Shown here: one piece after another, positions 8,511 to 32,102 of the stretch
Position numbering within the stretch: position 1 is the first letter of the stretch
Layout: every line of letters starts with the position of its first letter
Origin: Xenococcaceae cyanobacterium MO_188.B32
Lineage (GTDB): Bacteria > Cyanobacteriota > Cyanobacteriia > Cyanobacteriales > Xenococcaceae
Assembly (NCBI GenBank): GCA_030065635.1
Contig: JASJDJ010000070.1
Span: 1 to 32,232, forward strand
Length of the DNA: 32,232 bases
Direction of reading: 5' to 3'
Made by a program: the position numbers and the translations under genes
Notes under the pieces: model-generated
What the model saw: the letters and a program-made list of their open reading frames with translations, nothing else
The model's database searches: none
Told to the model about the DNA's origin: nothing

Positions 8511-9323
8511 ATGACTGATTTTTGGGAAGAAGTTTTAAATTTTTGCCAAACAATTACCAAACAAGTTGGCACTCAATTAATTGAAGATTTTGGTAAGTTA
8601 ACAGCAAATCAGAAAGAAGATGGTAGTTTAGTTACTAAAGCCGATCGATGGTCTGATAGAGAGATAAGAGAAGCGATCGCTAATGTTTTTCCCGACCATG
8701 GAGTTCTGACAGAAGAAACAACTCATATTTTCCCAGATAATGACTGGTGTTGGATTGTAGACCCGATCGATGGTACAACCAATTTTACTCGTGGTGTTCC
8801 TATTTGGGCTATTTCTCTGGGTTTGCTTTATAAGGGTACTCCTGTCTTTGGTTTTGTTTATCTACCTCCATTGCAACACTCTTTTCATGGCTATTGGTAT
8901 GGTAATTCTGGACTAACCGGACCGACAGGAGCTTATCTAAATAACGAAGCGATCCATACTAGCCAAGATACTCCCTCCAAAAGCCATCTTTTCAATCTCT
9001 GCGCTCGTAGCACTCAAGTATGGCAAAATCCTTTTCCTTGCAAAATCAGAATGATAGGTGTTGCTAGTTATAACATTTTACTAGTAGCTGTTGGGGCAGC
9101 ATTGGGGGGAGTAGAAGCCACCCCTAAAATTTGGGATATTGCTGCGGTTTGGGTCATTCTACAAGCTGCGGGGGGTAAGTTTGTCAGTTTGAATTCAGAT
9201 TCGATATTTCCCCTGCAAGTCGGTAACAACTATGGCAACATTTCCTATCCTAGTTTAGTTGTTGCCAGAGAAGAATTAGTCTCAGAATTTAAACCTCTAG
9301 TAGCTTTTTTGGGTAACAAATAG
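8511..9323 (+). CDS. Inositol monophosphatase family phosphatase
   Basis: The protein has 270 aa, a normal length for the Mg2+-dependent lithium-sensitive phosphatase family (IMPase, also HisN-like histidinol-phosphatases). Metal ligands are visible: Glu68/69 in LTEETT, the motif WIVDPIDGTTNF (81-92) with Asp84 and Asp87, and KIWDIAA (206-212) with Asp209. Likely substrates are inositol-1-phosphate or a related sugar or histidinol phosphate; the sequence alone does not decide. The start ATG has no clear Shine-Dalgarno sequence. It appears to be its own transcription unit, with 109 bp to the next gene. Confidence 0.92.
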   Translation: MTDFWEEVLNFCQTITKQVGTQLIEDFGKLTANQKEDGSLVTKADRWSDREIREAIANVFPDHGVLTEETTHIFPDNDWCWIVDPIDGTTNFTRGVPIWAISLGLLYKGTPVFGFVYLPPLQHSFHGYWYGNSGLTGPTGAYLNNEAIHTSQDTPSKSHLFNLCARSTQVWQNPFPCKIRMIGVASYNILLVAVGAALGGVEATPKIWDIAAVWVILQAAGGKFVSLNSDSIFPLQVGNNYGNISYPSLVVAREELVSEFKPLVAFLGNK

Positions 9324-9432
9324 AACTCGTTCAACATAAATTAATAAAAGTTAAAAATAATTAAGTAGGGTTTTATTTAAATCGAGCTAGGGGAATTATA
9401 AACAGCGTAAAGTTTAACTAAATCTCTTTGCT

Positions 9433-10206
9433 ATGAATCCCGTGAGAATTTGGGCGATCGCGAAAAACAGTTTTCAGGAAATAATTCGCGATCGTATTCT
9501 TTATTTCATCAGTTTTTTTACTCTGCTTCTAATTCTTGCTTCTCGCTTGTTACCAGAAATTGCTGCGGGTACTGATGAAAAGATCTTGCTTGATTTTGGT
9601 ATTGGTTCTATTGCCTTATTAAGCGTAGTCATAGCTATTTTTGTTGGTACGGGATTAATTAATAAAGAAATTGAAAAGCGTACTTTATTAATGCTGATTC
9701 CCAAACCGATCGCCCGTTCGGAATTAATTGTGGGTAAGCATTTAGGACTGCTTGGAGTTTTAACGGTAACTGTAGCAATTATGATGTCGATTTATTTAGG
9801 AATGCTAAGTTTTTCTAGTATTAGCTATCCTATTGTGCCTCTAAGTATTACTGCTATTTATTTATTAATAGAATTAGCTCTTCTGATTGCTGTAGCCATG
9901 GTTTTTGGCGTATTTACTAGTTCGATCTTGGCAACTTTACTTAGTTTTGGAGTGTATTTAATGGGGCATTTTAGTCAAGATTTAGTTGAACTAGGCAAAA
10001 TCAGCAAAAATGAAAGTATTGAAAATTTAACTAGTAGTCTTTATGTCATTTTACCTGATTTATCGAGATTAGACTTGAAAAATGAAGCTGTCTATGGTTT
10101 ATTACCAAATAATAGTGAATTACTAGCTCATGCCCTGTATGGCGTACTCTATACAATCTTACTTTTACTAATTGCTATGATGGTGTTTGCTCAAAAAGAA
10201 TTTTAG
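9433..10206 (+). CDS. ABC-2 type transporter permease, orphan
   Basis: The protein has 257 aa with about six hydrophobic segments (roughly 20-42, 56-80, 100-126, 133-162, 165-182, 232-252). The N-terminus MNPVRIWAIAKNSFQEIIRDRIL and the NKEIEKRTLLMLIPKPI segment (about 76-92) are typical of the ABC-2/NosY-like permeases in which a cytoplasmic amphipathic segment contacts the ATPase. No ATP-binding subunit gene is adjacent, so the partner must be encoded elsewhere. The substrate is unknown. The region 10207-10357 between this gene and the kinase gene holds nothing I can identify. Confidence 0.88.
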   Translation: MNPVRIWAIAKNSFQEIIRDRILYFISFFTLLLILASRLLPEIAAGTDEKILLDFGIGSIALLSVVIAIFVGTGLINKEIEKRTLLMLIPKPIARSELIVGKHLGLLGVLTVTVAIMMSIYLGMLSFSSISYPIVPLSITAIYLLIELALLIAVAMVFGVFTSSILATLLSFGVYLMGHFSQDLVELGKISKNESIENLTSSLYVILPDLSRLDLKNEAVYGLLPNNSELLAHALYGVLYTILLLLIAMMVFAQKEF

Positions 10207-13806: not shown

Positions 13807-14352
13807 ATGAAGGTAATCAAAACAAAAATTCCTGATGTCCTAATTATAGAACCACGAATCTTTGGAGATAATCGCGGTTTTTTCTACGAAAGCTTTAACG
13901 CTAAAGTTTTTGCCGAACAAACGGGAATAACAACTCAATTTGTTCAAGATAATCATTCTCGCTCTAGCCAAAATGTTCTGCGAGGTTTACATTATCAAAT
14001 TCAAAATTCTCAAGGAAAGCTAGTCAGAGTAGTGAGAGGAGAAGTTTTTGATGTCGCTGTAGATATTAGAAAAAGTTCTCCTACTTTTGGAGAATGGGTA
14101 GGTTGCATTCTCAATGAAGAAAATAAAAAACAATTATGGATTCCACCTAACTGCGCTCACGGATTTGTAGTTTTATCTGAATATGCTGACTTTCTTTACA
14201 AAACTACAGATTACTATTCTCCAGAATACGAAAGAGCAATATTGTGGAACGATCGAGATTTAGGCATAGATTGGCCCATAGAAGGGGAACCAATACTTTC
14301 AGCTAAAGACAAAGCTGCCCAACCTTTTCAAACCGCCGAGGTGTTCCCATGA
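13807..14352 (+). CDS. rfbC: dTDP-4-dehydrorhamnose 3,5-epimerase
   Basis: The protein has 181 aa, full length for RmlC. It epimerises C3 and C5 of dTDP-4-keto-6-deoxyglucose, the third step to dTDP-L-rhamnose. Residues: DNRGFFYES (21-29), DNHSRSS (48-54), VLRGLHYQ (57-64) with catalytic base His62, NCAHGFVV (115-122) and DFLYKTTDYYSPEYE (128-142) with Tyr131 as likely acid. It is first in the rfbC-rfbD-rfbA-rfbB set. Its stop overlaps the rfbD start by 4 bp (ATGA), implying translational coupling. The promoter should lie in 13683-13806, but no clear boxes are visible there. Confidence 0.97.
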   Translation: MKVIKTKIPDVLIIEPRIFGDNRGFFYESFNAKVFAEQTGITTQFVQDNHSRSSQNVLRGLHYQIQNSQGKLVRVVRGEVFDVAVDIRKSSPTFGEWVGCILNEENKKQLWIPPNCAHGFVVLSEYADFLYKTTDYYSPEYERAILWNDRDLGIDWPIEGEPILSAKDKAAQPFQTAEVFP

Positions 14353-15224
14353 AAAAAATTTTACTGACAGGAGTTACGGGGCAAGTTGGTCGAGAGTTAC
14401 AAAAAACCCTAGTTCCTTTAGGCGAAATAGTTAGTGTAACTCGTCAAGATATAGATTTAACTAAGCCAGAACTAATTCGCAGTGCGATCGCCGAACTTAA
14501 ACCCGATATAATTATTAATGCAGCAGCCTATACGGCAGTGGACAAAGCAGAAACCGAACCTAAATTAGCTACAGCCATCAATGGTGTTGCTCCGACCATC
14601 TTCGCCGAGTCAGCCCAAAAACTAGGTGCGACTCTGGTTCATATCTCTACAGATTATGTCTTTAACGGTCAAAATTATACTCCTTACACAGAAGAAGACC
14701 GTCCCAATCCCTTAGGGGTTTATGGCAAATCAAAATTGATGGGGGAAGAAGGAGTCAGAAATAATTGCGATCGCCATCTAATTCTCCGTACTGCTTGGGT
14801 TTATGGTTCTCGCGGGCATGGCAACTTTGTCAAAACTATGCTAAGACTGGGGGCAGAAAGAGAACAATTGCGGATAGTCGCCGATCAAATAGGTTCTCCT
14901 ACTTGGTCTTATGATATTGCCACCACTATTACTCAACTAGTTTCTAAGTCCGTTACGGGTACTTATAATTTTAGTAGTTCAGGTGTAGCTAGTTGGTATG
15001 ATTTTGCTGTAGCGATTTTTAGTGAAGCCAAACAATTAGACTTTCCTTTAAAAATTAAACAGATTATACCTATTACTACCGCTGAATATCCTACTCCCGC
15101 CCAACGTCCTGCCTATTCAGTTCTTTCTAAAGTCAAAATCACCCAAACCTTGGGCAACTATCCACCCCATTGGCAAAAATCCCTCAAACAAATGTTGTCA
15201 GAATGGCGATCGATAATCAGTTAA
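14349..15224 (+). CDS. rfbD: dTDP-4-dehydrorhamnose reductase
   Basis: The protein has 291 aa. It is a short-chain dehydrogenase/reductase that reduces the C4 ketone to give dTDP-L-rhamnose with NAD(P)H. The nucleotide motif is GVTGQVGREL (8-17), the active-site strand HISTDYVFNG (98-107) and the YxxxK pair Tyr125/Lys129 in VYGKSK. Length and motifs are normal. It is coupled to rfbC by the ATGA overlap. After its stop comes a 94-bp gap filled mostly with heptamer repeats before rfbA. Confidence 0.96.
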   Translation: MKKILLTGVTGQVGRELQKTLVPLGEIVSVTRQDIDLTKPELIRSAIAELKPDIIINAAAYTAVDKAETEPKLATAINGVAPTIFAESAQKLGATLVHISTDYVFNGQNYTPYTEEDRPNPLGVYGKSKLMGEEGVRNNCDRHLILRTAWVYGSRGHGNFVKTMLRLGAEREQLRIVADQIGSPTWSYDIATTITQLVSKSVTGTYNFSSSGVASWYDFAVAIFSEAKQLDFPLKIKQIIPITTAEYPTPAQRPAYSVLSKVKITQTLGNYPPHWQKSLKQMLSEWRSIIS

Positions 15225-15227
15225 CAC

Positions 15228-15318
15228 TCATCAGTTATCAGTTATCAGTTATCAGTAAAGCAACAACGACTAACAACTAACAACTAACAACTAACAACTA
15301 ACAACTAACAACTAACCA
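15228..15318. repeat. Two heptamer tandem repeat arrays abutting the rfbA start codon
   Basis: The first array (15228-15256) repeats AGTTATC about four times. The second (15270-15318) repeats CTAACAA six times plus a seventh unit CTAACCA, whose last base directly precedes the ATG of rfbA. No Shine-Dalgarno sequence lies between the array and the start codon, so the repeat itself forms the translation initiation region of rfbA. The heptamer identities differ from those at 4371 and 8444. Confidence 0.9.
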
Positions 15319-16392
15319 ATGAAAGCAATTATTCTCTCTGGTGGAAAAGGAACTAGGTTACGTCCCTTAACTTATACTGGGGCAAAACAATTAGTACCTG
15401 TAGCTAATAAACCTATTCTTTGGTATGGCATTGAATCTATAGTTGCTGCTGGTATTACAGATATCGGTATTATTATCAGTCCAGAAACAGGAGGAGAAGT
15501 AAAAGCGAAAACAGGAGATGGCGATCGCTTTGGTGCCAAAATAACCTATATTCTCCAAGATAAACCCTTAGGACTTGCCCACGCGGTAAAAATTGCCCAA
15601 CCTTTTTTGGGAGATTCTCCTTTTGTGATGTATTTGGGAGATAACTTAGTCCAAAGTGAGTTAGACTTATTTTTGGATAAATTTCAATCCTACCATCTCG
15701 ATGCTCTAACTCTACTCTGTGAAGTAGAAAATCCTAGTGCTTTTGGGGTAGCCAAAGTAGATGCCCGAGGAAAAGTACTGCAACTAATCGAAAAACCTGC
15801 TGTACCCCCTTCCAATTTAGCATTGGTAGGAGTATATTTGTTTTCTCCTGCTATTCACGATGCGATCGCTAAAATAAAACCTTCAGCTAGAGGAGAATTA
15901 GAGATTACCGATGCTATTCAGTACCTCATAGACCAACAAAAAAACGTCGATTCTTTTCGTTTAGAAGGTTGGTGGTTGGATACAGGTAAAAAAGATGACT
16001 TACTCGCAGCTAATCAAATTATTTTAGACAGTTGCCTCAATTTGACTATCGAAGGGTCAATCGATGCTCCTAGCAAAGTTAGTGGTAGAGTTCACATTGG
16101 CTCTGGCTCTCGTATTATTAATAGTACTATTAGGGGGCCTGTAACTATCGGTCAAAATTGCCAGATCGAAAACTGTTTTATTGGCCCTTACACTAGTATT
16201 GCTGATGAGTCTACCTTAATTGATACGGATATCGAACACAGTGTCATTCTTAAAGGAGCAAAAGTAATTGGCATTCACCAGCGTATTGTGGATAGTTTAG
16301 TAGGAGAAAGGGCACATCTTAAAATCGCCCCTCAGCGTCCCAAAGCTCTTAGATTTATGATTGGTGATGATTCGCAAATTGAATTAATTTAA
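15319..16392 (+). CDS. rfbA: Glucose-1-phosphate thymidylyltransferase, long form
   Basis: The protein has 357 aa, against about 290 aa for the enterobacterial short form. It forms dTDP-glucose from dTTP and glucose-1-phosphate, the first step to dTDP-rhamnose. The N-terminal nucleotidyltransferase domain has SGGKGTRLRPLT (7-18), KQLVPVANKP (23-32), YLGDNLV (about 110) and VEKP-like LIEKP. The C-terminal part (about 245-340) has hexapeptide repeats (VHIGSGSRI, VTIGQNCQI, IENCFIGPY) of a left-handed beta-helix. This layout matches the long RmlA/StrD-like group of cyanobacteria and actinobacteria. The ATG directly follows the heptamer array, without a visible Shine-Dalgarno sequence. The start is supported because the family motif begins within six residues. 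Confidence 0.95.
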   Translation: MKAIILSGGKGTRLRPLTYTGAKQLVPVANKPILWYGIESIVAAGITDIGIIISPETGGEVKAKTGDGDRFGAKITYILQDKPLGLAHAVKIAQPFLGDSPFVMYLGDNLVQSELDLFLDKFQSYHLDALTLLCEVENPSAFGVAKVDARGKVLQLIEKPAVPPSNLALVGVYLFSPAIHDAIAKIKPSARGELEITDAIQYLIDQQKNVDSFRLEGWWLDTGKKDDLLAANQIILDSCLNLTIEGSIDAPSKVSGRVHIGSGSRIINSTIRGPVTIGQNCQIENCFIGPYTSIADESTLIDTDIEHSVILKGAKVIGIHQRIVDSLVGERAHLKIAPQRPKALRFMIGDDSQIELI

Positions 16393-16430
16393 ATTTCGGT
16401 TAATTTTTAATTGTTGATTGGTAAATTTTA

Positions 16431-17525
16431 ATGGCATCTGTCAAACAAACTAATTCTCGAAAACCTCGAAAAATCTTGATAACTGGTGGTGCTGGATTTA
16501 TTGGTTCCAATTTTGTTCATCACTGGTGCAATAATTATCAAAGCGATCGCATAGTAGTTTTAGATGCTCTTACCTATGCTGGAAATCGCAACAATATCGC
16601 AGCACTAGAAGACAATGCTAATCTTTTATTCGTGCAAGGAAATATTTGCGACCGTTCTTTGGTCGATCGATTATTAGCAGAAGAAGAGATCGATACAATA
16701 GCTCATTTTGCCGCCGAATCTCATGTCGATCGATCTATTCTCGCTCCCGATGCTTTTATCCAGACTAATGTTGTCGGTACTTTTACATTATTAGAATCTT
16801 TTCGACAACGATGGGAGAACCAAGGCAAACCCCTAGATTATCGTTTTCTTCATGTTTCTACCGATGAAGTTTATGGTAGTCTTGCTCCTGACGACCCTGC
16901 TTTCACGGAAACTACTCCCTACGCTCCCAATAGTCCGTACTCTGCTTCTAAAGCAGGTAGCGATCATCTTGCCCGTGCCTATTATCATACCTATGGAATG
17001 CCAACCATTATTACTAACTGTTCTAATAATTATGGCTCCTATCATTTCCCCGAAAAGCTGATCCCCTTAATGTGCATCAATATCCTTCTGGGTAAACCTT
17101 TACCAGTTTATGGAGATGGACAAAATATTCGCGACTGGCTATATGTAGAAGATCATTGTCGTGCTTTAGACGTAGCGATCCATCAGGGCAAACTAGGGGA
17201 AACTTATAATATTGGTGGCAATAACGAAGTTAAAAATATCGATCTAGTCGAGCAAATTTGCACGTTAATGGATGAATTAGCGCAAGACTTACCAGTAAGT
17301 CCAGCCAAAAAGCTGATTACCTTTGTTAAAGATAGACCGGGACACGACCGCCGTTATGCGATCGACGCTACTAAAATTAAAACCGAACTAGGTTGGAGTC
17401 CTCAAGAAACCATCGAAGGAGGCTTAAGACGTACAGTTCAATGGTATCTTAACAACCGTGATTGGTGGCAACCTCTATTATCTCCAGAATATCAAACCTA
17501 TTATCAACAAGTTTATTCTGAGTAA
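16431..17525 (+). CDS. rfbB: dTDP-glucose 4,6-dehydratase
   Basis: The protein has 364 aa. It is an NAD+-dependent extended short-chain dehydrogenase that turns dTDP-glucose into dTDP-4-keto-6-deoxyglucose. It has NAD-binding GGAGFIGS (19-26), [11 protein letters not shown] (92-102), catalytic Thr144-Asp145-Glu146 in STDEVYG, and YSASK (170-174). An N-terminal extension of about 12 residues rich in Lys/Arg precedes the family start. It is the last of the four dTDP-rhamnose genes, 38 bp after rfbA. Its stop lies only 2 bp from the stop of a convergent gene, so no terminator fits between them. Confidence 0.97.
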
Positions 17526-17527: not shown

Positions 17528-18250
17528 TTAACGTTTTAGAGCAATAATACTAAGATTAACGATATCTTGATTTTCCAATAAAACCTGAATTTCTAGTTCT
17601 GCTTTTGTGGGAATACCCACTACTGATAGAGAAGTTTCAAACCCACTTTTTCCTGCTGCTGCAATATCTGGGTAATATTGAGTAACACCAGGAGAAGGTA
17701 AATTCACAGGAGTCTCTACTAAAGTTTTACCTTGATGATTAAGCCTGATTGTAGTAGCTAGAGACTTTTTGCCCAGTACCCAGCCTTTAACTATAATTGA
17801 ACCCCCTGATATTTTTGTTTCAGCCTTGGGTGAAGCAATACTAAAACCCCATAAAGAATCAAAATCTTCTTGGGGCAAACGTTTGACCTCTAAAACATCT
17901 ACAGTTGTTTGTAGTTGTTGATACCAATCTTCATAACTAACTGGCTTAGTGGAAATTTGCTTTATTTCTTGCTGCTGTCGTGTTAACTGTTGTTGACAGC
18001 GAAGCAACTTATTGGAGGTCTCTTTAAGCTTTAGTTGAGTCTCTCCTAATTCTATCTGAAACCCTTGAGATATCAAAAGTTGAGCTTTAGCTTGTTCTTC
18101 TTCTCTTTTGGAGTACTGTAGTTGTTTTTTGAGATTATCTACATTTATCTGTGCCTTCTGTAGCTTTGCTTTAGTGGATTCTGCTTCTCTTTGATACTTT
18201 TTTAGTAACCCACCAGAAAGCCAATCTGATAGTTTTAATCGCCAACTCAA
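17528..18250 (-). CDS. Coiled-coil protein with C-terminal beta-sandwich-like domain
   Basis: The protein has 240 aa. A short basic N-terminus is followed by a long coiled coil (about 15-105, rich in Gln/Lys/Glu/Leu). Residues about 128-240 form a beta-rich domain: LWGFSIASP (133-141), IIVKGWVLGKKS (151-162), ETPVNLPSPGVTQYYPD and AAAGKSGFETSLSV. Similar GWVLG...YPD...GF patterns occur next to or within cyanobacterial glycosyltransferase and sulfotransferase proteins, which fits its place between the rhamnose genes and the glycosyltransferase run. It has no catalytic motif. The start codon is TTG, chosen because a perfect AAGGAG lies 7 nt upstream. It could be a scaffold or glycan-recognition protein. 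It is convergent with rfbB, 2 bp apart. Confidence 0.75.
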   Translation of the reverse strand: MSWRLKLSDWLSGGLLKKYQREAESTKAKLQKAQINVDNLKKQLQYSKREEEQAKAQLLISQGFQIELGETQLKLKETSNKLLRCQQQLTRQQQEIKQISTKPVSYEDWYQQLQTTVDVLEVKRLPQEDFDSLWGFSIASPKAETKISGGSIIVKGWVLGKKSLATTIRLNHQGKTLVETPVNLPSPGVTQYYPDIAAAGKSGFETSLSVVGIPTKAELEIQVLLENQDIVNLSIIALKR

Positions 18251-21497: not shown

Positions 21498-23867
21498 ATG
21501 AGTCCAACTCCGCCATTTGCTAGCGTTAGTGAATTTATCCAAATACTCACTAATAGAAAACTCGATTATGCTAACTCTTTTGTTAGCGATCCACCAGCAG
21601 TATCCATAATATCTTCCTTTTATAATGTTCCAGAAGAATATTTTAGACAGGCAAATTATTCGATCGCGCATCAGACTTTCCAAAATTACGAATGGATTAT
21701 CGTTGATGATTGTTCGACTGAGTCAGAAGCAAAAAAGTTATTTGATTTTTTGCCCCAATTAAATCCTAAAATCAAAACCTTGCGCCATCAAAAAAATAGA
21801 GGTTTAGCAGCAGGAAGAAATACCGCTATTACTAATGCAAGAGGTAAGTATCTATTGTTTATGGATACCGATGATATCCTCGAACCAACTTTTATTGAGA
21901 AGTGCGTTATTTTTTTAGAAACTCATCCAGAATTTTCTTTTGTTAATTCCTACTCTGTAGGCTTTCAAGCACAAGAATATTGGTGGACAAATGGATTCGA
22001 TCGACCGAGTAAATTTATCGAACAAAATTGGGTAACGGGAAGACTTTTATATAAAAAAGAAGATTTCGATCGATTGGGACAATTTGATGAAAAATTAAGA
22101 TTTTATGAGGATTGGGAGATGTGGCTAAAAGCATTTAGTCATCATCAAAAAGGATGGACAATTCCCGAATTTTTGGATTGCTATCGTCGTAGTAATTCAG
22201 GTTTATTAGCAATTTCGAGACAAAGAATTGCAGAAGAACAACAAGTTACTAATTTAATTAAATCTCGTTATCAAAAGTTTTTTGAAGAAAATAATTTAGC
22301 TGATATCTACATAGAAAGACCTATGTTTGATGTTAGTGTATTGAGACAAAAAATAGAAATTAAAAATAGTCTTTATTTGCATAAAAATGGTAAGCGGGTT
22401 CTCTGTTGGCTACCCCACATGGAAGTAGGAGGGGCTGATAAATTCAACCTAGATTTGTTTGCTGGTTTAAAACAGAGAGGATACGATCTGACAATCGTTA
22501 CTACCGTACCTGCCCAAAATCTTTGGCAAGCCAAATTTTACCAAATTACCCCCGATATTTTTCATTTACCTGGTTTTCTTCACTACGGTCATTGGCTCAC
22601 ATTTGCCCGCTATTTAATTGAATCTCGGCAAATAGATATTGTTTTTATTTCTAATGCTTATTATGCTTATTATTTAGTTCCGATTTTAAGACAAGAATTT
22701 CCTCAAGTTGCTTTTGTAGACTACACCCATACAGAAGACCCTAACTGGCGGGAAGGAGGATATCCTAGAGTTTCCTGTCAATTTACCGATTTTTTAGACT
22801 GTCAGATAGTAACTTCTGCATATTTAGCTAACTACTATCAGCAACTCGCTCCAAAAACTCAAAATAAATTAAGAGTTTGCTATATTAATGTAGATAAACA
22901 TAAATGGCAGTTTTCGTCGCAAAAGAGAAGAGAATATCGTCAAAAATTAGCGATTAATGATAATATCATTTTGTTGATTTTTCCAGCAAGAATAACTCAG
23001 CAAAAAAGGCCTCTATTTTTGGTAGAAATAATTAAGAAATTAAGCCAAAAATCTTTACCTATTGCTATACTTACTTTGGGTAAAGGAGATATGTTTGCTG
23101 AATTTAATAACAAGATAAATAGTCTGGGTTTGAGTTCGGTTTTTAAACTTTTATCCCATGTCTCTCCAGAAGAAATGGTAGGCTACTATTCGGCAGCAGA
23201 TATTCTTTTACTACCATCAGAATACGAAGGAATTTCGTTAGCAATTTATGAAGCAATGGCTATGGGTTTACCAATTATTGCTTCTGATGTAGGAGGGCAA
23301 AAAGAATTATTAACACCAGGAAGTGGTTTTTTAATTCCTAAAACATCTGGAGATTTAACTGAAATTGAAAAATATGTAGAAGTTTTAGAATCTCTAATTA
23401 ATGATCGAAAAAGACGGCAACAAATAGGTAAATCTGCTAGAGCTAGAGTGGAAAAGCATTTCTCTTTAGAAATTACGCTCGACAGGATAGAAACTATTTT
23501 TGATGAAGCGAAGAAATTGAGAATTACCAGCTTTAAAAATAAAATAAATTCTGCTATTTCAGAAGAAATGTTGCTTTGGATTCAAGAGTATTTAGCTTTG
23601 GATAGATTTTGGCACGAATCACAAAAATCGAGTCAGAGATTAAAAGAACTCAATGCTTGGAATAATCACCTTCAAAAAGACACAGATATGTTTAAAAATC
23701 AGAGCATAGCTTGGAAAAAAGTGGCACGACAAATGCAAAAAGAATTAGAGCAATTAAAAACTCAATACCATCAGGCGCAAGCAAATATAAAAGCCTTAGT
23801 ATTCCAGCTTAAAAATGCAGATTTGAGTAGTAGTAATGAGTCAGTTATTGATAGCTTTTTATCGTAG
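21498..23867 (+). CDS. Two-domain glycosyltransferase (GT2 + GT4) with C-terminal coiled coil
   Basis: The protein has 789 aa. Residues about 33-260 form a GT-A, family 2 domain: VSIISSFYN (35-43), IIVDDCS (67-73), RGLAAGRNTAI (101-111) and FMDTDD (121-126) with the metal-binding DxD. Residues about 297-650 form a GT-B, family 4 domain starting KRVLCWLPHMEVGGADKFN; it has LIFPARITQQKRP and the E-x7-E donor motif EYEGISLAIYE (about 574). Residues about 690-780 are a coiled coil. Both catalytic domains look intact, so one polypeptide may add two sugars in sequence. No membrane segment is seen, so it is probably cytoplasmic or peripheral. It belongs to the plus-strand run after the TPR gene. Confidence 0.92.
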   Translation: MSPTPPFASVSEFIQILTNRKLDYANSFVSDPPAVSIISSFYNVPEEYFRQANYSIAHQTFQNYEWIIVDDCSTESEAKKLFDFLPQLNPKIKTLRHQKNRGLAAGRNTAITNARGKYLLFMDTDDILEPTFIEKCVIFLETHPEFSFVNSYSVGFQAQEYWWTNGFDRPSKFIEQNWVTGRLLYKKEDFDRLGQFDEKLRFYEDWEMWLKAFSHHQKGWTIPEFLDCYRRSNSGLLAISRQRIAEEQQVTNLIKSRYQKFFEENNLADIYIERPMFDVSVLRQKIEIKNSLYLHKNGKRVLCWLPHMEVGGADKFNLDLFAGLKQRGYDLTIVTTVPAQNLWQAKFYQITPDIFHLPGFLHYGHWLTFARYLIESRQIDIVFISNAYYAYYLVPILRQEFPQVAFVDYTHTEDPNWREGGYPRVSCQFTDFLDCQIVTSAYLANYYQQLAPKTQNKLRVCYINVDKHKWQFSSQKRREYRQKLAINDNIILLIFPARITQQKRPLFLVEIIKKLSQKSLPIAILTLGKGDMFAEFNNKINSLGLSSVFKLLSHVSPEEMVGYYSAADILLLPSEYEGISLAIYEAMAMGLPIIASDVGGQKELLTPGSGFLIPKTSGDLTEIEKYVEVLESLINDRKRRQQIGKSARARVEKHFSLEITLDRIETIFDEAKKLRITSFKNKINSAISEEMLLWIQEYLALDRFWHESQKSSQRLKELNAWNNHLQKDTDMFKNQSIAWKKVARQMQKELEQLKTQYHQAQANIKALVFQLKNADLSSSNESVIDSFLS

Positions 23868-23924: not shown

Positions 23925-26900
23925 ATGAATAGAGCTACCGTAATAACTAATGAGACTGTTGAAGATTGTATCGATAAAGCCAATCAATTAAGGCAAGAAG
24001 GTAAATTGGATGAGGCGATCGCTCTTTATCAGCGTGCCATAGAACTAGACCCCAATTCTTATCAGTCTTATCACTATATGGGAGAAACTCTGGCACAAAA
24101 AGATGAGTTGGAAGCAGCAGCTAACTTTTATAATTTAGCCTTAGAAATTAACCCCGAGTTTTTTTGGTCATATCATTGTTTAGGACTAGTTTTATTTTGG
24201 CAGGGTAAGTTGGACGAAGCGATTGCTGCATCTCGTAAGGCGATCGAGATAGAGCCAAATAAAGCCATATTTCACTATCAATTAGGACAGTATCTGGAAC
24301 GTCAGGGACATATAGAAAAGGCGAGCGCAGCTTACAAAAAAGCGATAACAATTGAACCAGATTTTTCTATAGTCCGTCAAACCCTAGAAAATCTTGTTGA
24401 GAACAAAAAGACTGCCAACAAACTAGCATTTTTAATACCAGAACTAAGTAAATCAAGCAGTCAAAATGAAGATATTTTGCAAATTTTGCTATTTGCAGCC
24501 TCAAGAATTGAGCAAGAATTGGCAAGAAACCCTGACAATTTGGCTGTTAGCATAATTTCAGTAAATGCAGATACTAGTGGTTGGGAAGACTTATCTAATT
24601 TATTTTCTAAAAAAGCTTTAGATCATATATCTTTAGTTAAGCTTGAAGAGCCGACAACACCAAATCTATGCAGTGGCAACCATAAAACAACCTATGATTT
24701 GCTGGAATATCTGAAAAATAATCCTTGCGATGAAATTCACTATCTAGATTATCGTGGCGTTGCTTACTATGCCTCACAGGCTAAACATCTCGGTCTTTAT
24801 TTTTTAGAAACCATTTTTGCTGCCCACATAGTTGGGGGAACAGTTTTTCGCAAGCAAGCTGACTCTAGTTTGGTTGATGATGTACTAGTTTTAATGGACG
24901 ATCTTCTGGAAATAGGAAGCATTGAAAAGGCAGACGCTATCTATGTCCATGACAACAAAGCTTGGTCATGGTACTTGGATAAGATAGAATTATCCTCCAA
25001 TACGAAGATTTACGATTTATCTCACATAAAACTCGAACAGCAGATTCAAGAATTTATTCCCACAAATACTACTGATAAACTACCGATAGTGTTTTATGGT
25101 TTGTTAAGTGAGGATGGAGGACTTCCTCTATTTTGTAATGCGATTAGTCGAGTAATTAGTAAAATTGAAAACCCATTTGAAATAGTGTTTATCGGTTCAC
25201 CGCGACCAATTGCTGGAATGGATGCGATAAGTTATATCAGGCTACGTAGTGCCAAATGGGGTGTACCAGTAAAAATAGAACATCAACTGACTATTACTGA
25301 GGAAATCGCTTTAATCGCTGAACTTAATGGGATTGTATTTTACAGCAAAATCAAGCGAGAAGGACTGAGATGCCGATTGATAGAAAGTTTAGGTGTTAGA
25401 AGTATAAAAATCGATTCTACTAATCCTAACAAGATCGATCGACCAGATAATATATGTTCTGCTAATCCAGGCAAGGTTGCTAAAAAAATAGTTGCCTTAA
25501 GCCAAGTTCCTATTCCCAGAATTCCTCAATTTTCCTTGAGTTTAACTGAACTTTGGCAAGCTGGCAGAATTGATTTTATCCTTGAAGGCTTAGAAGATAT
25601 AAGTTCATCTCCCTCATTGCAACTACTAACTCCAGATCGACAACCTAAAGTTAGTGTCTGCATAACTCATTTTTCCCGTCCTCAGAAACTTCGAGAAGCG
25701 ATCGACTCAATTCGCCAACAAACTTATAGTAATCTTGAAGTTATCGTTACCGATGATGGTAGTCCTGACCCTGAGGTTCAAAAGGAATTAGCAATAATTA
25801 AAGAAGAAATCCAACAGTTAGGTTGGAAGTTAGTCAGTCAAGAAAATAAATATTTGGGAGCAGCACGTAACTTTGGTATGAGTCACGCAAAGGGTGATTA
25901 CATACTATTTATGGATGACGATAATTTGGCAAAACCCCAGGAAATTGAAACTTTAGTGGCGATCGCTAAAAGGACGGGAGGAGAAATTATCAATTCCTTT
26001 TGTGATACTTTTGAAACGGATAAACCACCTGAAGCCGAACCGCCAAGGATCAGATTTACACCGTTTGGAGCAGATCCTGCTCTGGGAGCTTTTAGTAATT
26101 GTTACGGCGATGCTAACGCTCTCTTTTCCAAAGAAGTTTTGGATAGGCTGGGAGGATTTACGGAAGATTATGGATTGGGACACGAAGATTGGGAATTGTT
26201 TTCTCGCGCCTCATTAATGGGGGTAAAAATGGTTTGTGTTCCAGAGCCTTTATTTTGGTATCGGGTAGATTCAAGTGGGATGTTACGCAGTCAGCTTCAC
26301 AAGAGTGCGGATTTAAAGCGTAGTATTCGACCTTTTATCGAACATTTACCCTATCATCAAGCCAAGTTAGTCTTATTGGCTCAAGGACTCGTTAACAAGT
26401 TACCAGTTACCGTCGAACCAGCTACCCAAAGAGCAACACCTAAAAGTTTAGGCAACAAACAAAAAACTCTTCCCTATGGTCGAGTTGCGGTTATCACTAG
26501 AACAAAAGATCGACCTTTACTACTAGCTAGAGCAGTTCAAAGTGTACTTTCACAAACCTTTAAAGATTGGATACTTGTAATAGTTAACGATGGAGGTAAA
26601 GTAGAAAGTGTTGAGTTAGTAGTAGATAGGTTTAAAGAAGAACTTAATGGTCGTGTCGTCGTCATTCACAATCCTACTTCTTTGGGGATGGAAACCGCTT
26701 CTAACTTGGGAATTAGCAATTGTGATAGTGACTATATTGTTATTCATGATGATGACGATAGCTGGAAACCAACATTTTTAGCTCGCACAGTTTCTCACCT
26801 TGATAATTGTGCTTGGGATGCAAAACTTGGCGGAGTTGTCACTTGGTCTAACGTAATTATTGAAGAGCTTGAAGACAATGGAGAGATAACTATTCAAGAT

Positions 26901-28025
26901 AGCTATATCTTTAATGACAGTCTGCGGAATATCTCAATACTCGAGTTGGCTGTAGAAAACCGATTTCCACCTATATCATTTATTTTTCGGCGTGCAGCAT
27001 TAGATGTGGTAGGGCCTTTTGATGGCAATTTAAGGGTTCTTGGGGACTGGGAGTTTCATCTAAGAATTCTCAGAAAATTTAATATAGATGTCATTACTGA
27101 ACCTCTAGCTAATTATCATCATCGTCCTAAAGTAAAAGGAGGCATTTATTCTAACTCCGTACACGGTCAAAGTGATTTTCATCAATCAACTCGCGTTAAG
27201 CTGATGAACGATATCTTCCGTCAAGAGTTAGCCAAGGAAAATGGATTATCGTTGGCTCAGTTATTATCGATGGGGGATATGCAAAGCTTGTTGATTCGCG
27301 AGCAAAATCAAAAATTTCAACAGCTTAATAACTATATTTGGACAATTGAGCAGTTTTTGAAGTTTCACATTACCAATTTAGACAAAGGAGTTGAGCAAGT
27401 AACCTCATATTTAGGAATTAAGCCTGAGGAACAGGCACAAAAAAGCGGTCGCAATGTTTTTTACAATGGAGATTTTCGCATTTGGGGAAAAACCGAAATT
27501 GTTGAAAATCAACCAGCTTATTCGGAAGTTTGCCCTAATGTTTTCGTCTCCTACAATGGAGACAATGTTTCCTACCGCATTACAAGTCATCAATGTCAGG
27601 AAGAAAATGAGAGTTTACCCCAGGGTAAAACTTATCTCCATTTGGAAAATGACGGAGTGACGGAAAATGGAAATTACTTTTTCCTAGAATTTCTTATATC
27701 TTCGGCTCTTATATTTTCTGATCAACCTGTATGCATCTCTGGTGTTTCTCGCCTTCAAGGTGCTGATTCGATTAAGATAAGTGGTCGTCACTTTTTGGGA
27801 AATGGTCGGCAAATCGATCTTCCTTGGCAACAAGTAAATTTATCTTCTGAGTTCAAGCCTTGGAGTTGTTCTTTTATTTATCCGTCAATTGACGAATCTG
27901 AGATTGCCACAGGTCATCATCACAGAATATTCCTAATTTCCCCTCACAATAAAGCTTTTGAGTTTGATTTAACTAATTTTCAGGTAGAATTTGGTGAAAA
28001 ACCAACGGCATTTGAGTATTTATAA
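23925..28025 (+). CDS. Giant TPR / GT4-like / GT2 / GT2 / beta-sandwich glycosyltransferase
   Basis: The protein has 1366 aa, preceded by GAGAGAT as Shine-Dalgarno. Order of domains: four TPRs (about 14-147); a GT4-like region (about 165-545) recognisable from DEIHYLDYRGVAYYASQAK but lacking a clear E-x7-E donor site (REGLRCRLIESLG near 480 is the nearest); a GT2 domain (about 573-800) with VCITHF, VTDDGSP (near 607) and FMDDDN (near 661); a second GT2 domain (about 850-1085) with VAVITRTKDRP, VNDGG and HDDDD (near 940); a helical linker; and a beta-rich C-terminus (about 1173-1366) starting VFYNGDFRIWG, like carbohydrate-binding jelly rolls. I infer a multi-step glycan assembly enzyme with a probably inactive GT4 module. 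It looks intact, with no frameshift. Confidence 0.9.
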   Translation: MNRATVITNETVEDCIDKANQLRQEGKLDEAIALYQRAIELDPNSYQSYHYMGETLAQKDELEAAANFYNLALEINPEFFWSYHCLGLVLFWQGKLDEAIAASRKAIEIEPNKAIFHYQLGQYLERQGHIEKASAAYKKAITIEPDFSIVRQTLENLVENKKTANKLAFLIPELSKSSSQNEDILQILLFAASRIEQELARNPDNLAVSIISVNADTSGWEDLSNLFSKKALDHISLVKLEEPTTPNLCSGNHKTTYDLLEYLKNNPCDEIHYLDYRGVAYYASQAKHLGLYFLETIFAAHIVGGTVFRKQADSSLVDDVLVLMDDLLEIGSIEKADAIYVHDNKAWSWYLDKIELSSNTKIYDLSHIKLEQQIQEFIPTNTTDKLPIVFYGLLSEDGGLPLFCNAISRVISKIENPFEIVFIGSPRPIAGMDAISYIRLRSAKWGVPVKIEHQLTITEEIALIAELNGIVFYSKIKREGLRCRLIESLGVRSIKIDSTNPNKIDRPDNICSANPGKVAKKIVALSQVPIPRIPQFSLSLTELWQAGRIDFILEGLEDISSSPSLQLLTPDRQPKVSVCITHFSRPQKLREAIDSIRQQTYSNLEVIVTDDGSPDPEVQKELAIIKEEIQQLGWKLVSQENKYLGAARNFGMSHAKGDYILFMDDDNLAKPQEIETLVAIAKRTGGEIINSFCDTFETDKPPEAEPPRIRFTPFGADPALGAFSNCYGDANALFSKEVLDRLGGFTEDYGLGHEDWELFSRASLMGVKMVCVPEPLFWYRVDSSGMLRSQLHKSADLKRSIRPFIEHLPYHQAKLVLLAQGLVNKLPVTVEPATQRATPKSLGNKQKTLPYGRVAVITRTKDRPLLLARAVQSVLSQTFKDWILVIVNDGGKVESVELVVDRFKEELNGRVVVIHNPTSLGMETASNLGISNCDSDYIVIHDDDDSWKPTFLARTVSHLDNCAWDAKLGGVVTWSNVIIEELEDNGEITIQDSYIFNDSLRNISILELAVENRFPPISFIFRRAALDVVGPFDGNLRVLGDWEFHLRILRKFNIDVITEPLANYHHRPKVKGGIYSNSVHGQSDFHQSTRVKLMNDIFRQELAKENGLSLAQLLSMGDMQSLLIREQNQKFQQLNNYIWTIEQFLKFHITNLDKGVEQVTSYLGIKPEEQAQKSGRNVFYNGDFRIWGKTEIVENQPAYSEVCPNVFVSYNGDNVSYRITSHQCQEENESLPQGKTYLHLENDGVTENGNYFFLEFLISSALIFSDQPVCISGVSRLQGADSIKISGRHFLGNGRQIDLPWQQVNLSSEFKPWSCSFIYPSIDESEIATGHHHRIFLISPHNKAFEFDLTNFQVEFGEKPTAFEYL

Positions 28026-28099: not shown

Positions 28100-28873
28100 A
28101 TGGAAACAAACAAAAATAACAATTCCAACATAGTATTTTTGATAGCTAACGAGCGTTCTGGAACAAATTTTTTACGAAGTTGTTTAAATTCTCATCCTGA
28201 GATCGACTTTCGTGGAGAATGTTTATGGCCTGGTTTGTTTGACTGGGGATATTATCGGTTCTGGAGCGACAAAATCAAAGAAGATGCAGAAAATATCCTT
28301 CCTCCCAACCGAGTAAAAGTCTTTGAAGATTATCTATTTAAATTCAGAGCTAAAAGTCAGGCTGAATGGTTTGGACTTGACATTAAGTATCCGCAATTAG
28401 AAGGAAATTACTCTTTTTCAAAAGTTATTTTTTCTGGTCGATTTTATATTTTACACTTGCTGAGAAAAAATCTTCTTAAGCAGGTTGTTTCACAAGATAT
28501 TATGTATAAACGTATTAATTCTGGCGATAAGAAGATACATAGAAATTATGTTCCCGAAATTTATAGATATAAACCAGACCCAAAAGTAATTATAAATAAG
28601 ATTAAGAGATTTAAAAATTTGCAGGTCAAATATTCTCGAATTGCCAGGGAAAGTCAGGCAAAATATTTAGAAATTTATTATGAAGACATAGCTGACGAAA
28701 AAAGTGATTTTGGCAAGATTTTCAAATTCTTAGGCGTTGAAGAAATTAAACAAAAATCACATCTAAAAAAGCAAAATCCTTGGTTGCTCAAAGACATTCT
28801 TATAAACTATCAAGAAATACAACAAGAAATATCAAATACAAATTTCAAGCATATGCTTCAGCTTCCTGGTTAG
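28100..28873 (+). CDS. Sulfotransferase family protein
   Basis: The protein has 257 aa. The N-terminal P-loop-like 5'-phosphosulfate site is ANERSGTNFLRSCLNSHP (16-33), typical of PAPS-dependent sulfotransferases, followed by an ...FRGECLW segment. Region 115-135 (VIFSGRFYILHLLRKNLLKQ) fits the 3'-phosphate binding strand and helix, with the usual R...S pattern changed to LRKNLLKQVVS. The C-terminal half is helical and basic. The expected reaction is transfer of sulfate from PAPS to a hydroxyl, here likely of the cluster's polysaccharide. It lies 74 bp after the giant glycosyltransferase gene. It is GC-poor and lacks HIP1 sites. Confidence 0.82.
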   Translation: METNKNNNSNIVFLIANERSGTNFLRSCLNSHPEIDFRGECLWPGLFDWGYYRFWSDKIKEDAENILPPNRVKVFEDYLFKFRAKSQAEWFGLDIKYPQLEGNYSFSKVIFSGRFYILHLLRKNLLKQVVSQDIMYKRINSGDKKIHRNYVPEIYRYKPDPKVIINKIKRFKNLQVKYSRIARESQAKYLEIYYEDIADEKSDFGKIFKFLGVEEIKQKSHLKKQNPWLLKDILINYQEIQQEISNTNFKHMLQLPG

Positions 28874-29005: not shown

Positions 29006-30001
29006 ATGACAAGAGAACTAAAAATGGAAAGTGTATTCATTGGTGTTCATATACCTAAAACAGCAGGGACAACACTAATAAAAATTCTCGAAAAAGAATT
29101 TGGATTCAATGGATTTCATCAAACAACAAATCTTCAAAAAAATGCCGATATTGGTATTCCTTTTATTGAGGAAATGCACGATAATAGTAATTATAAGGTA
29201 CTGTTTGGACATCATATTGATGAAAAAACCTTGTTTCATTTTTTAAATAGGAATATATATCTTTTTACTTTTATTAGAGAACCTATCCAAAGAATATTAA
29301 GTCAATATCGTTTTTGTATTGGACTAGCGAAAAGGCAGAATAGCCAACCAATTGATTTTGATAGTTTTTATTCTGCTCTTCAGAAAAATTTATTGTGTAA
29401 TTGGATAATAAGTCGATTTCCTTCCTTTCTAGATGATAATGACATTTCTTTACCTCTTCATCAGAAAGCTATAAAGATTTTGCGTTGTTTTAGATTTATT
29501 TGTTCTACTGAAGAATTTGATTCAAAAGTAGTAGATCTTTTAGGCGAAATGAAAGTAAGTTCGGAGAACATGATTATTCCTAGAGCTAACGTAAGTGGTC
29601 AAAAGAATGTCGAAATGGAATTCGATCTCGAAACAATTAGGAATGATAATAAAGAAGATATAGCTTTGTACAGCAAGTTTTGCGAAGCCAGAAAAATAAA
29701 TTTCTTGGCGCAAAATCCTTTGATTTTTGATAGTGATTATTATCAAAGAAAAATATTAGAGCTTTCATCTCAATCTTATAATAAACAACAACGTCTTAAG
29801 TCTTGTTTTAATCAAGCTGCAAGGGAATATAAAAGTTACGGCAATTTAGAGAGAGAGATTAAGAAAACAAAAATTGATATTTTAAATAAAGCTTTAAAAT
29901 TAGAAGTTTTATTGTCACAATTTAATAATTTAGACCTTCAAGAAGCAGATTTTTCAAAAAAAATCGAAGCTGTTATTGATTCTGTTTGTAACCTAGATTG
30001 A
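29006..30001 (+). CDS. Sulfotransferase (family 2-like) with helical C-terminus
   Basis: The protein has 331 aa. HIPKTAGTTL (15-24) is the classic phosphosulfate-binding signature of carbohydrate sulfotransferases of the heparan/dermatan 2-O type and their bacterial relatives; FTFIREPIQRILSQYRF (87-103) gives the 3'-phosphate site with Arg91 and Ser99. It is a second PAPS-dependent enzyme beside an unlike one, which suggests sulfation at two positions. Residues about 240-331 are helical with coiled-coil character and exceed the catalytic core. An ATG at 29024, 7 nt after AAGAGA, is an alternative and perhaps better start (325 aa). It is AT-rich, with no HIP1 site. Confidence 0.85.
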   Translation: MTRELKMESVFIGVHIPKTAGTTLIKILEKEFGFNGFHQTTNLQKNADIGIPFIEEMHDNSNYKVLFGHHIDEKTLFHFLNRNIYLFTFIREPIQRILSQYRFCIGLAKRQNSQPIDFDSFYSALQKNLLCNWIISRFPSFLDDNDISLPLHQKAIKILRCFRFICSTEEFDSKVVDLLGEMKVSSENMIIPRANVSGQKNVEMEFDLETIRNDNKEDIALYSKFCEARKINFLAQNPLIFDSDYYQRKILELSSQSYNKQQRLKSCFNQAAREYKSYGNLEREIKKTKIDILNKALKLEVLLSQFNNLDLQEADFSKKIEAVIDSVCNLD

Positions 30002-30101
30002 GTATAGTAGTCTTTAAGTTAGATTTAAACAATAACCCATATCTTGGGAAGATTTTAACTATCTAAAAATCTCAATACAATTACTTGATTTGAAAAGCAA
30101 T

Positions 30102-32102
30102 ATGAGCAATTTATTGTCTATATTTTCTCCGAGCAATCAAAAGTGCCATCTAAATTCACAACAAGAATTTAAAAAAATACTATCAGTTGTTTCTACAGTT
30201 TCTTTCGACCTATTTGATACTTTAGTTTGGAGAGAAAAGTTATTCTCTCCTAAAGACCTATTTTATCAAGTAGAAGAAATGGCAAAAAGTAAGCTAGGAA
30301 TTCCTCTTAGAAACTTCAATGCTTTGCGGGTTCGGGCAGAAGAAATAGCTCGCGTTCGTGCCTGCGGAAATAACTTAGAAGAAATTACTATAGAAGAAAT
30401 TTATCGAGAATTATCAAGACTATTAAAAATAGATTCAGAACAAGCAAACAGTATCTTAAAAATTGAATTAGAACTAGAAAAGTCTAGAATAAAAACCCTT
30501 GACGCTGGTAAGCAACTTTTTGACAAAGCGATTTCGGCTGGAAAAAAAGTTGCGATTGTTTCTGATATTTATTTTGATAAAAATTTTATCGAGGATATTG
30601 TCAATCAAAATGGCTACTCAGAAGCTGCAAAAATTTATATTTCTTCCACATACCGTAAAACTAAAGCAGAAGGTTCACTCTATGACATTGTTATTAAAGA
30701 TTTAGGTTGCTTGCCAAATCAACTACTGCACGTAGGAGATAATAAGCATTCTGACATTAGCATGGCTCTTAATAAAGGCATAAGAGTCTGTCTGGCATCT
30801 AACGCCAGAAAACAGTTTAAATGGAGGTGTGGAATTGGCGATGTTCCCAGCGGAGATTTAATTACATCTGCTATGTTATGCAAAATTAGTGAGATGTATT
30901 ATGAACGACAAGACACAGAAATCAAAGATTCTGTCTTAAAACGTACCGCCATAGAAAATTTATCTCTGCTTTATTATGGCTATGCTGCTTGGCTATTAGA
31001 AAAAGTAAAAAAAAGGCGTTATCAGCGGATATATTTTGCTGCTCGGGATGGGTGGATTGTTAAGCGTTTCTTCGATCTTCTTGCTGATGCTGCAAATCTA
31101 ACTGTAGATTCAAGATATCTGTATGTTTCCCGTGCTGCTCTTTATCCGAGTCTAATTTTTACAGAACCAGAAACTGCGCGTAAACAATTTTGTCAAAACT
31201 GGGATTTATTAACAATAGAACAAGCATTAAAAAGAGCATCTTTAAGTTTTGAAGAATGTAAAGATAGCCTTATAAAACATTATTTGGCCGAACCAGGATT
31301 ATTACTCAATCACTCTACATTACCAAGATTTAAAGCTTTTCTTGAAGATATTTGGTCTTTAGTAGAAAACAAAAATAAAGAGCGTTACGAATTAATAGTT
31401 GAATATCTACATCAGGAAAAATTTTTGGAATCAGAAACAGTAGCTTTTGTTGACTTAGGATGGCATGGTTCTTTACAAAATTGCCTAATGAAACTCCTCA
31501 AATATCTTGGGATCAAAAAAGAAATAAACGGTTACTATCTAGGTACTTTTGCCAAACCTTCAAAAGCAGAACCTAATTTTACTGTTGAAGGATATTTACT
31601 AAATGACGATCGACCACACTGGATTTCTGAATTAGTTAGATATGGACCCTCCGTACTCGAACTATTTCATAATGCCAATCACGGAACGGTTGTTGGCTAC
31701 AAACATCAAGATAATCAAATATCACCTATTCTAGAAAATAACCGAGTAGAACTTGAACAGTTTCATAAAATAATCGAGCCAGTTCAAAACGCTGCATTTG
31801 ATTTTGTATCTCAACAACTCAGAAGCTTAGGGTTTACTACTATAAAAGCTCCAGAAATAGCACTTATCGCCAGAATGGCATTACGCGTAATTTATAACCC
31901 AACTATAGAGGAAGCTCAGACTTTTGGTCGCCTCAAGATAGCTTGTGACTTTGGTGAGGGAGCAACGATGAGAAGTATTACAGGAATGCTTGAGTATAAT
32001 CTGCAAAATATTCAAGAAGAACACCTACCTGATGGAACTATTCCTATTTGGCGACCAGGTTTTAATACTTTAAAGTCATCTAATATTAAAGTCATCGCCT
32101 AG
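30102..32102 (+). CDS. Large HAD-superfamily protein with C-terminal domain, polysaccharide-cluster type
   Basis: The protein has 666 aa from the ATG at 30102; a TTG 12 bp upstream is less likely. The N-terminal HAD hydrolase has motif I VSFDLFDTLVW (Asp36, Asp39), a helical cap (about 50-130), motif II VAIVSDIYFD (near 155), a conserved Lys in RKTKAEGSLY, and motif IV LLHVGDNKHSD (near 210). All four catalytic motifs are present. The remaining 400 residues start near YYGYAAWLLEKV and include IYFAARDGWIVKRF, a pattern I associate with HAD-fused proteins of O-antigen and exopolysaccharide loci. The biochemical role of that second half is unknown to me. I infer phosphatase activity on a sugar or lipid-linked intermediate. 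It ends the gene run in this window. Confidence 0.85.
   Translation: MSNLLSIFSPSNQKCHLNSQQEFKKILSVVSTVSFDLFDTLVWREKLFSPKDLFYQVEEMAKSKLGIPLRNFNALRVRAEEIARVRACGNNLEEITIEEIYRELSRLLKIDSEQANSILKIELELEKSRIKTLDAGKQLFDKAISAGKKVAIVSDIYFDKNFIEDIVNQNGYSEAAKIYISSTYRKTKAEGSLYDIVIKDLGCLPNQLLHVGDNKHSDISMALNKGIRVCLASNARKQFKWRCGIGDVPSGDLITSAMLCKISEMYYERQDTEIKDSVLKRTAIENLSLLYYGYAAWLLEKVKKRRYQRIYFAARDGWIVKRFFDLLADAANLTVDSRYLYVSRAALYPSLIFTEPETARKQFCQNWDLLTIEQALKRASLSFEECKDSLIKHYLAEPGLLLNHSTLPRFKAFLEDIWSLVENKNKERYELIVEYLHQEKFLESETVAFVDLGWHGSLQNCLMKLLKYLGIKKEINGYYLGTFAKPSKAEPNFTVEGYLLNDDRPHWISELVRYGPSVLELFHNANHGTVVGYKHQDNQISPILENNRVELEQFHKIIEPVQNAAFDFVSQQLRSLGFTTIKAPEIALIARMALRVIYNPTIEEAQTFGRLKIACDFGEGATMRSITGMLEYNLQNIQEEHLPDGTIPIWRPGFNTLKSSNIKVIA

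Follow-up and report, generated by a model that had tools for sequence, protein, structure and literature searches.

What would a single polypeptide do that carries tetratricopeptide repeats (TPRs), three glycosyltransferase (GT)-like domains and a beta-sandwich? The question is raised by positions 23925-28025 of contig JASJDJ010000070.1 from Xenococcaceae cyanobacterium MO_188.B32, a stretch of 32,232 nucleotides that was analyzed whole and is called the window here. The open reading frame (ORF) starts with ATG on the forward strand and runs without interruption for 1366 amino acids (aa). We consider the protein real and unusual: its parts are known, and we infer its function with fair support. 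It probably belongs among the multi-module glycan polymerases. We give about an even chance to the narrower proposal that it would elongate the chain as the Leloir-type subunit of a ribofuranose/rhamnose-type polysaccharide polymerase, with roles assigned to its parts by analogy.

An original prediction, made without database searches, had read TPRs, a decayed GT4, two GT2 domains and a C-terminal jelly-roll in this protein, and all five modules were recovered by Pfam, profiles and a structural model. The TPRs (~ 15-160) and the GT2 domains (577-742 and ~ 853-1065) gave strong Pfam or profile matches; for aa 165-557 and the C-terminus, Pfam returned nothing even at E 10. The AlphaFold2 model covers aa 167-1366 and was built from a 22-row alignment (mean predicted local distance difference test score (pLDDT) 74.2, pTM 0.58); the VIA lists of structural matches re-examine those found by Foldseek and are not a separate search. 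Judged from related sequences, the module order is not due to chance, because a protein from an Anaerolineae metagenome-assembled genome (MAG; locus L036) shows this order except for the TPRs. We found no description of this order in the open-access literature among the matches listed.

The middle module, hereafter GT4*, is a predicted GT-B domain by fold and a GT4 by descent, since it gave both a profile-profile match to intact GT4 regions and structural alignments to GT4 structures. The trio of GT4* sequences (window protein, L036 and L047, the last from Solidesulfovibrio) matched 11 intact GT4 regions at 99.9% (E 7e-32). The model of aa 167-562 aligned with GT4 structures at Z 20-22, as with GlgM (6tvp; Z 22.3, root-mean-square deviation (rmsd) 4.4, 332 aligned) and BshA (6n1x; Z 21.9, rmsd 4.2, 324 aligned). 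The original prediction had staked its reading on aa 165-545 folding as GT-B, and the model of this region does align with GT4 structures (Z ~ 22).

Most of the catalytic features of a GT4 are gone from this module, as judged by its motifs. The glycine-rich loop, RNGGIGT in intact GT4 domains, reads SSSQNED in the window protein and APQNEAV in L036. The basic pair of GRLxxRKG, whose Arg and Lys bind the diphosphate, has been lost from GLLSEDGG in the window protein, GALSADSG in L036, and GPLRAQNG in L047. The Pfam GT4 model did not match the middle module at E 10, while five homologs scanned were Pfam GT4 + GT2 proteins, each matching PF00534. The decay had been foreseen, together with the HxxxYRGxxYYxxQAK-type stretch that is kept at H272-K287, but its site had been misplaced: a clear E-x7-E was said to be absent, yet E479 and E487 (EGLRCRLIE) are present and align ungapped with ENSPYTVLE of intact relatives. 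The decay is seen instead at the glycine loop and at the two basic residues.

That E-x7-E, together with the intact GT-B fold and the retained acceptor-side stretch, could mean that the module has kept its catalysis and works through a changed donor site, in which case the protein would be a three-GT enzyme. We regard this as improbable, given that the glycine loop and both basic residues are gone in the window protein, L036 and L047, that the second Glu is Lys in the Anaerolineae ortholog (ENLRARLIK), that the region is partly deleted in L047, and that a Pfam GT4 match is missing.

Under the preferred reading of a dead GT4, the module seemingly changed role and is now retained, with a divergence rate close to that of intact GT4 domains. 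It looks retained because GT4* is 45% identical between the window protein and its Anaerolineae ortholog (GT2a core, 71%), against the 48% predicted at the same GT2a divergence by a line through 253 homolog pairs (residual standard deviation 0.06). These pairs come from 23 proteins outside the decayed class, of which two lack one basic residue. Measured against the remaining homologs, GT4* sits 12-16 points under the line in the window protein, L036, and L047.

The two GT2 modules are probably sugar-adding modules in working order. Each has a PF00535 match, a DxD-type motif and a C-terminal acidic base, and the acidic motifs are intact in both (FMDDDN 662-667 and GHEDWE 752-757 in GT2a; those of GT2b are in Table 1), so that the call of two intact GT2 domains stands. 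Foldseek matched the model best to the nearest solved tandem relatives, the K4 chondroitin polymerase (K4CP, 2z86; E 5e-24, 544 columns) and heparosan synthase 2 (8vh7), which carry two GT2/GT-A modules per chain. The match to K4CP over both modules had an rmsd of 15.8, indicating that the GT2 pair is packed differently in the model, while 233 residues of GT2a alone superposed on K4CP at Z 25.1. In both enzymes, the two GT modules alternate. To our knowledge, neither has a GT-B, TPR or carbohydrate-binding module (CBM), or a ribose transferase partner.

The C-terminal domain is a beta-sandwich of clear fold in its model, and several families match it about equally well. This model was built from two sequences and has a mean pLDDT of 59.6, with the core mostly at 75-85. 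It aligned with CBM4-2 (2y6j; Z 12.0, rmsd 3.2, 155 aligned), with a phage tailspike domain (8iq9; Z 11.6, rmsd 3.5, 145 aligned), and with viral tail-fibre models (E ~ 1e-8 to 1e-7). Cyclases, meprin domains and other beta-sandwich proteins fell just 1-2 Z below the best matches. The predicted jelly-roll is thus found as a CBM4-like, carbohydrate-binding-type sandwich in a low-confidence model. The tail-fibre family phrog_4492 matched the L036 copy across the domain at E 2.5e-6 and the window copy at E 0.0023. The sandwich is shared with the tail-fibre C-terminal domain and with CBM4-2, but the window's copy ends a glycosyltransferase that is presumably cytoplasmic. It is also the least conserved module (37%). 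Plain-sequence searches of 291 genomes of the order yielded no credible relative, and two other hits (E 0.004-0.008) hold stop codons; none was found in phage records by sequence or in viral contigs by pattern. The leads on its kinship are the PHROG profile and the fold only.

Absent from the original prediction was the key partner, which lies ~ 2 kb downstream of the 1366-aa ORF, beyond two sulfotransferase-like ORFs, and belongs to a ribofuranosyltransferase family. Judged by its homologs, this enzyme probably adds ribose. It matched 7shg, 'Ribofuranosyl transferase', at E 2.9e-21 (query 146-622) and Bcs3 of the Hib capsule at E 2.2e-24 (query 36-488); the C-terminal gPRT module alone matched 7shg at E 5e-27. 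Each of the three genomes with the GT4*-GT2a-GT2b order has a co-oriented partner of ~ 670 aa downstream of its GT protein, and the HAD and gPRT motifs DxFDT, GDN, RDG, and DxGWHG are invariant in 3/3 copies. The window partner is 52% identical to that of L036 and 29% to that of L047, and the family occurs in 13 of 148 genomes of the order, own genome counted. In such enzymes, according to the available text of PMC11127046, the gPRT transfers ribofuranose-5-phosphate from phosphoribosyl pyrophosphate (PRPP) and the HAD phosphatase strips the phosphate.

The pairing of GT2b with such enzymes extends beyond these three genomes. Among loci up to L132, the GT2b profile scored > 200 bits solely in the window, L036, L047, L003, and L131, and 5/5 of these loci have the HAD family plus a gPRT or gPRT-like module. 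The same HAD family was seen in 3 of 78 other loci of a genome-contig scan, which took the best 80 loci of at least 521 relatives (L065, L066, and L081; gPRT too in L065 and L081). The gPRT-like modules of L003 and L131 matched that of the partner by hhalign (95%, E 3e-8) and gave no match by simple search. In G010, a genome of the same family (L003/L178), a TPR-like gene is followed in turn by GT2, methyltransferase, and HAD genes and by a gPRT-like module fused to GT2b. That fusion (L178 9838-12009) is direct and represents an alternative layout of the same kit; by itself its gPRT-like module had no PDB match. L131 (~ 2805-9812) lies on the Methylorubrum extorquens AM1 megaplasmid NC_012811, in a polysaccharide-type cluster with no listed features in the collection. 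There, an ABC transporter pair is followed by two GT2b and by genes for an HAD phosphatase, a methyltransferase, and a gPRT-like product, the transporter and methyltransferase being named by eye from translations.

How might these parts work together? The rml genes, assigned by NCBIfam equivalogs, lie upstream of the 1366-aa ORF, which makes dTDP-rhamnose a sensible donor candidate and L-rhamnose the best guess for the sugar handled by GT2a and GT2b. These modules would add one or more sugars to the chain end; the partner would add ribofuranose-5-phosphate from PRPP and remove the phosphate, and the two proteins would alternate. The dead GT4 may serve as a scaffold or acceptor grip connecting the two GT2 modules with the chain, the sandwich may hold the nascent chain, and the TPRs, as a local addition, may anchor the complex to a protein of the host. 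The product may be sulfated by the sulfotransferases encoded nearby.

We infer this division of labour, as in Klebsiella pneumoniae O7, because the window has a GT2 pair, a ribofuranosyltransferase partner and rml genes. In the available text of PMC11231755, the O7 polymerase has two C-terminal GT2 modules that use dTDP-rhamnose and a stand-alone ribofuranosyltransferase, so that ORF6^O7 and ORF7^O7 share with the window the tandem C-terminal GT2 pair, the separate ribofuranosyltransferase and the dTDP-rhamnose pathway. Where O7, as described there, has a methyltransferase-kinase terminator and a coiled coil before the GT2s, the window protein has TPRs and a dead GT-B. Unlike that account of O7, to which the likeness is one of description and not of sequence, the window also has the C-terminal CBM-like sandwich and sulfotransferase genes. 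Bcs3 (PDB 8a0c; PMC10299916) is alike in that its ribose transferase, which uses PRPP, and its HAD phosphatase are homologs of the partner, and in having a GT-B module and a polymer-binding domain within the machine; the latter makes such a domain plausible in a polymerase here. It differs in being a single chain, in that its GT-B is an active ribitol-phosphate transferase, and in having no GT2 among its named domains.

The same enzymes could instead serve the Wzx/Wzy pathway and assemble short repeats on a carrier lipid, with each module adding one sugar once and a separate Wzy polymerizing the units. Further GT modules in the window (21498-23867) fit this, as does the lack of a glycan ABC exporter pair among the window ORFs scanned; a single ABC-2 permease-like ORF (9433-10206) lies far upstream, between a phosphatase and a histidine kinase. 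The cut contig leaves room for it too. We nevertheless think it unlikely, since the nearest solved tandem-GT2 proteins are polymerases, the pair of ribofuranosyltransferase and double GT2 described for K. pneumoniae O7 is a polymerase in the available text (PMC11231755), and a chain-binding module fits elongation better.

Several observations weigh against the elongating-subunit proposal. The window spans the entire contig, whose end at 32232 is 130 bp beyond the partner, so ABC or Wzx/Wzy genes would be out of view. Neither an O7-type terminator nor a long coiled coil was found in the 1366-aa protein, which has only a predicted helical linker of low confidence (aa 1083-1174). The constraint argument on GT4* comes from one ortholog pair, the L047 copy being just 18-21% identical to both, and the E-x7-E of the window protein allows some residual GT4 chemistry. 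The sandwich model is of low confidence and glycan binding by it is putative. Finally, the five GT2b loci are those that turned up, not a full survey, and the plasmid side covered two records from among 25 of 103.

Does a second GT2 go with a dead GT4? A strict rule to that effect held in the first 28 rows and was weakened by a wider sample. Those rows comprised the window protein, three paralogs in the same-family genome G006 from a 60-relative search (aligning at ~ residues 216-825, 31-35% identity), and the 24 ORFs that were aligned out of 31 with a GT4- or C-terminal-region match in the 80 loci. Both the Arg and Lys of GRLxxRKG were lost in 5/5 proteins with more GT2s; among the 23 others, 21 had both and two lacked one, and the GT2a tree of these rows required two label changes. 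The wider sample took all ORFs of at least 400 aa, from 190 sources, in which a GT4-type region immediately precedes a GT2, and gave 103 ORFs, 74 distinct at 98%, 60 with an aligned C-lobe motif. Both basic residues were missing in 6/7 multi-GT2 proteins (L171 intact) and in 4/53 single-GT2 proteins (L073, L129, L139, and L143); one was missing in 7/53 of the latter (L044, L135 = L048, L136, L138, L144, L148, and L158), and 42/53 were intact. In 14 more, the C-lobe motif was absent or unalignable: the multi-GT2 L053 and L172, and 12 with a single GT2 (L059, L064, L065, L066, L068, L069, L071, L146, L150, L152, L154, and L164). Several of these 14 probably have a GT2 but no GT4. The sample was seeded by this family and is no survey, its rows are related, and ORFs cut at contig or locus ends may miss a domain. 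Fisher tests used earlier hand counts (7/8 vs 3/40; linkage 5/5 vs 3/78) and ignored descent.

In five single-GT2 fusions, L048 (a Methylacidiphilaceae MAG) and L136, L138, L139, and L148 (from the class of G588), the GT4 Arg is changed (GPLESRKRL type), as are the glycine pair and the first Glu; by alignment, this is further recurrent decay of the same GT4. L145, with a single GT2 and a degenerate C-lobe, falls outside the spacing rule of the wider sample. That GT2b replaced GT4 is put forward as a hypothesis only, because loss also occurs in single-GT2 proteins and one multi-GT2 protein is intact. A possible but rather doubtful scenario is that a second GT2 took over, after which the GT4 half lost catalysis and persisted as a GT-B clamp or ruler for the acceptor, handing the chain between the two GT2 sites and the ribofuranosyltransferase. 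The module set would then have crossed phyla, with similar conversions occurring more than once.

The relatives speak to the history of the protein. The GT4-GT2 fusions (L037, L038, and L042; L002, L030, and L032 of G006) share the GT4-then-GT2a order and are evident relatives of its ancestor by alignment, at ~ 29-35% identity over GT4-GT2a; they differ in having intact GT4 motifs, one GT2, no GT2b, and no ribofuranosyltransferase match in their loci. The Solidesulfovibrio protein has GT4*-GT2a-GT2b and no sandwich. The body of the 1366-aa protein looks horizontally transferred, because its identity to the Anaerolineae ortholog (51%; 68% in GT2a) exceeds that of EPSP synthase (46%) and, among 386 sampled genomes of the phylum, full-length kin turned up in none but its own. 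The Anaerolineae MAG has the same domain order without TPRs, and a full-length GT4* was found within the phylum sample in the own genome only (5 others partial). The own genome was also alone among 291 genomes of the order (8 others partial), the Anaerolineae genome among 249 of its class, and the Solidesulfovibrio genome among 247 of its class (3 others partial); no GT4* relatives were found in viral contigs. L036 is a MAG contig, for which misbinning is possible, and G+C along the ORF (0.36-0.42) is unremarkable against the window (0.37). In L036 (505-16471), the ortholog stands amid cellulose-synthase-like GT2 and membrane glycosyltransferase-like proteins, as read by eye from translations.

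The TPR head looks like a local addition. A 376-bp stretch of its DNA recurs at 79% identity in G001, a genome of the same genus, within a separate 179-aa ORF that lies on the opposite strand and adjoins a TPR-GT2-GT2 protein whose TPR part is homologous to the window gene at 18847. This 1683-aa neighbor (L176 9601-14649) shares 78% DNA identity with that gene over ~ 1.26 kb of its TPR part. TPR and GT modules are, by these comparisons, shuffled in this genus. The protein could also be a protein glycosyltransferase of the TPR-GT kind, its TPRs binding a pilus, S-layer or flagellin-like acceptor; the TPR-GT arrangement suggests as much, and O-GlcNAc transferase is among the PDB matches via its TPRs. 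We judge this very improbable, as the ortholog has no TPR, the TPR looks locally captured, and the partner and operon are of polysaccharide type.

Table 1. Coordinates of the five-module ORF, its modules and motifs, and neighboring genes in the window
Feature	Position	Strand	Remarks
rmlC, rmlD, rmlA(long), rmlB, dTDP-L-rhamnose pathway	13807..17525	+	TIGR01221, TIGR01214, TIGR01208, TIGR01181 above cut-off
TPR protein, 875 aa	18847..21474	+	
GT2-GT4 fusion, opposite order, Pfam-recognised GT4	21498..23867	+	PF00535 E 1e-27, PF00534 E 1.6e-30
Five-module ORF	23925..28025	+	1366 aa; ortholog L036 7995-11729, 51% identity over 1226 columns
TPR module, ~ aa 15-160	23967..24404	+	Pfam TPR_11 E 1e-25; not in Anaerolineae ortholog
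GT4* module, aa 165-562	24417..25610	+	Predicted GT-B fold minus GT4 glycine loop and Arg/Lys pair
SSSQNED, aa 177-183	24453..24473	+	Roughly at GT4 RNGGIGT loop position
Retained N-lobe stretch HYLDYRGVAYYASQAK, aa 272-287	24738..24785	+	
YGLLSEDGG, aa 391-399	25095..25121	+	Replaces FGRLxxRKG; no Arg, no Lys
E-x7-E EGLRCRLIE, aa 479-487	25359..25385	+	Ortholog L036: Lys for second Glu
GT2a, aa 574-780	25644..26264	+	PF00535; own profile E 2e-92; K4CP Z 25.1
GT2b, aa 853-1067	26481..27125	+	HDDDDS 941-946, LGDWEF 1039-1044
Predicted helical linker, ~ aa 1083-1174	27171..27446	+	Low pLDDT
CBM4-like beta-sandwich, aa 1176-1366	27450..28022	+	NGDFRIW ... QVEFGEKPTAFEY
Sulfotransferase-like	28100..28873	+	PF13469 E 1.8e-6
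Sulfotransferase-like	29006..30001	+	PF03567 E 1.8e-9
Bipartite ribofuranosyltransferase-family partner (HAD phosphatase + gPRT)	30090..32102	+	PDB 7shg, Bcs3

Elsewhere in the window, two ORFs overlap on the reverse strand (169-4238), one for an AAA-ATPase-like protein and the other for a protein that combines CHAT with AAA, an arrangement that occurs in signalling or defence-type systems. A 240-aa ORF (17528-18250, reverse strand) had no Pfam match; its residues 107-239 resemble parts of two proteins of the G001 TPR-GT locus at 34-37% identity. Rfam gave no match in the window.

The 1366-aa protein would be a concrete example of a polymerase part that began as a glycosyltransferase domain and is no longer catalytic. 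PRPP-dependent enzymes for ribofuranose-containing polysaccharides were described only recently, and the locus would tie a so far unassigned cyanobacterial gene cluster to polysaccharides of this kind, which may also be sulfated and contain rhamnose. The pairing of GT2b with a ribofuranosyltransferase may be usable for spotting such clusters elsewhere.

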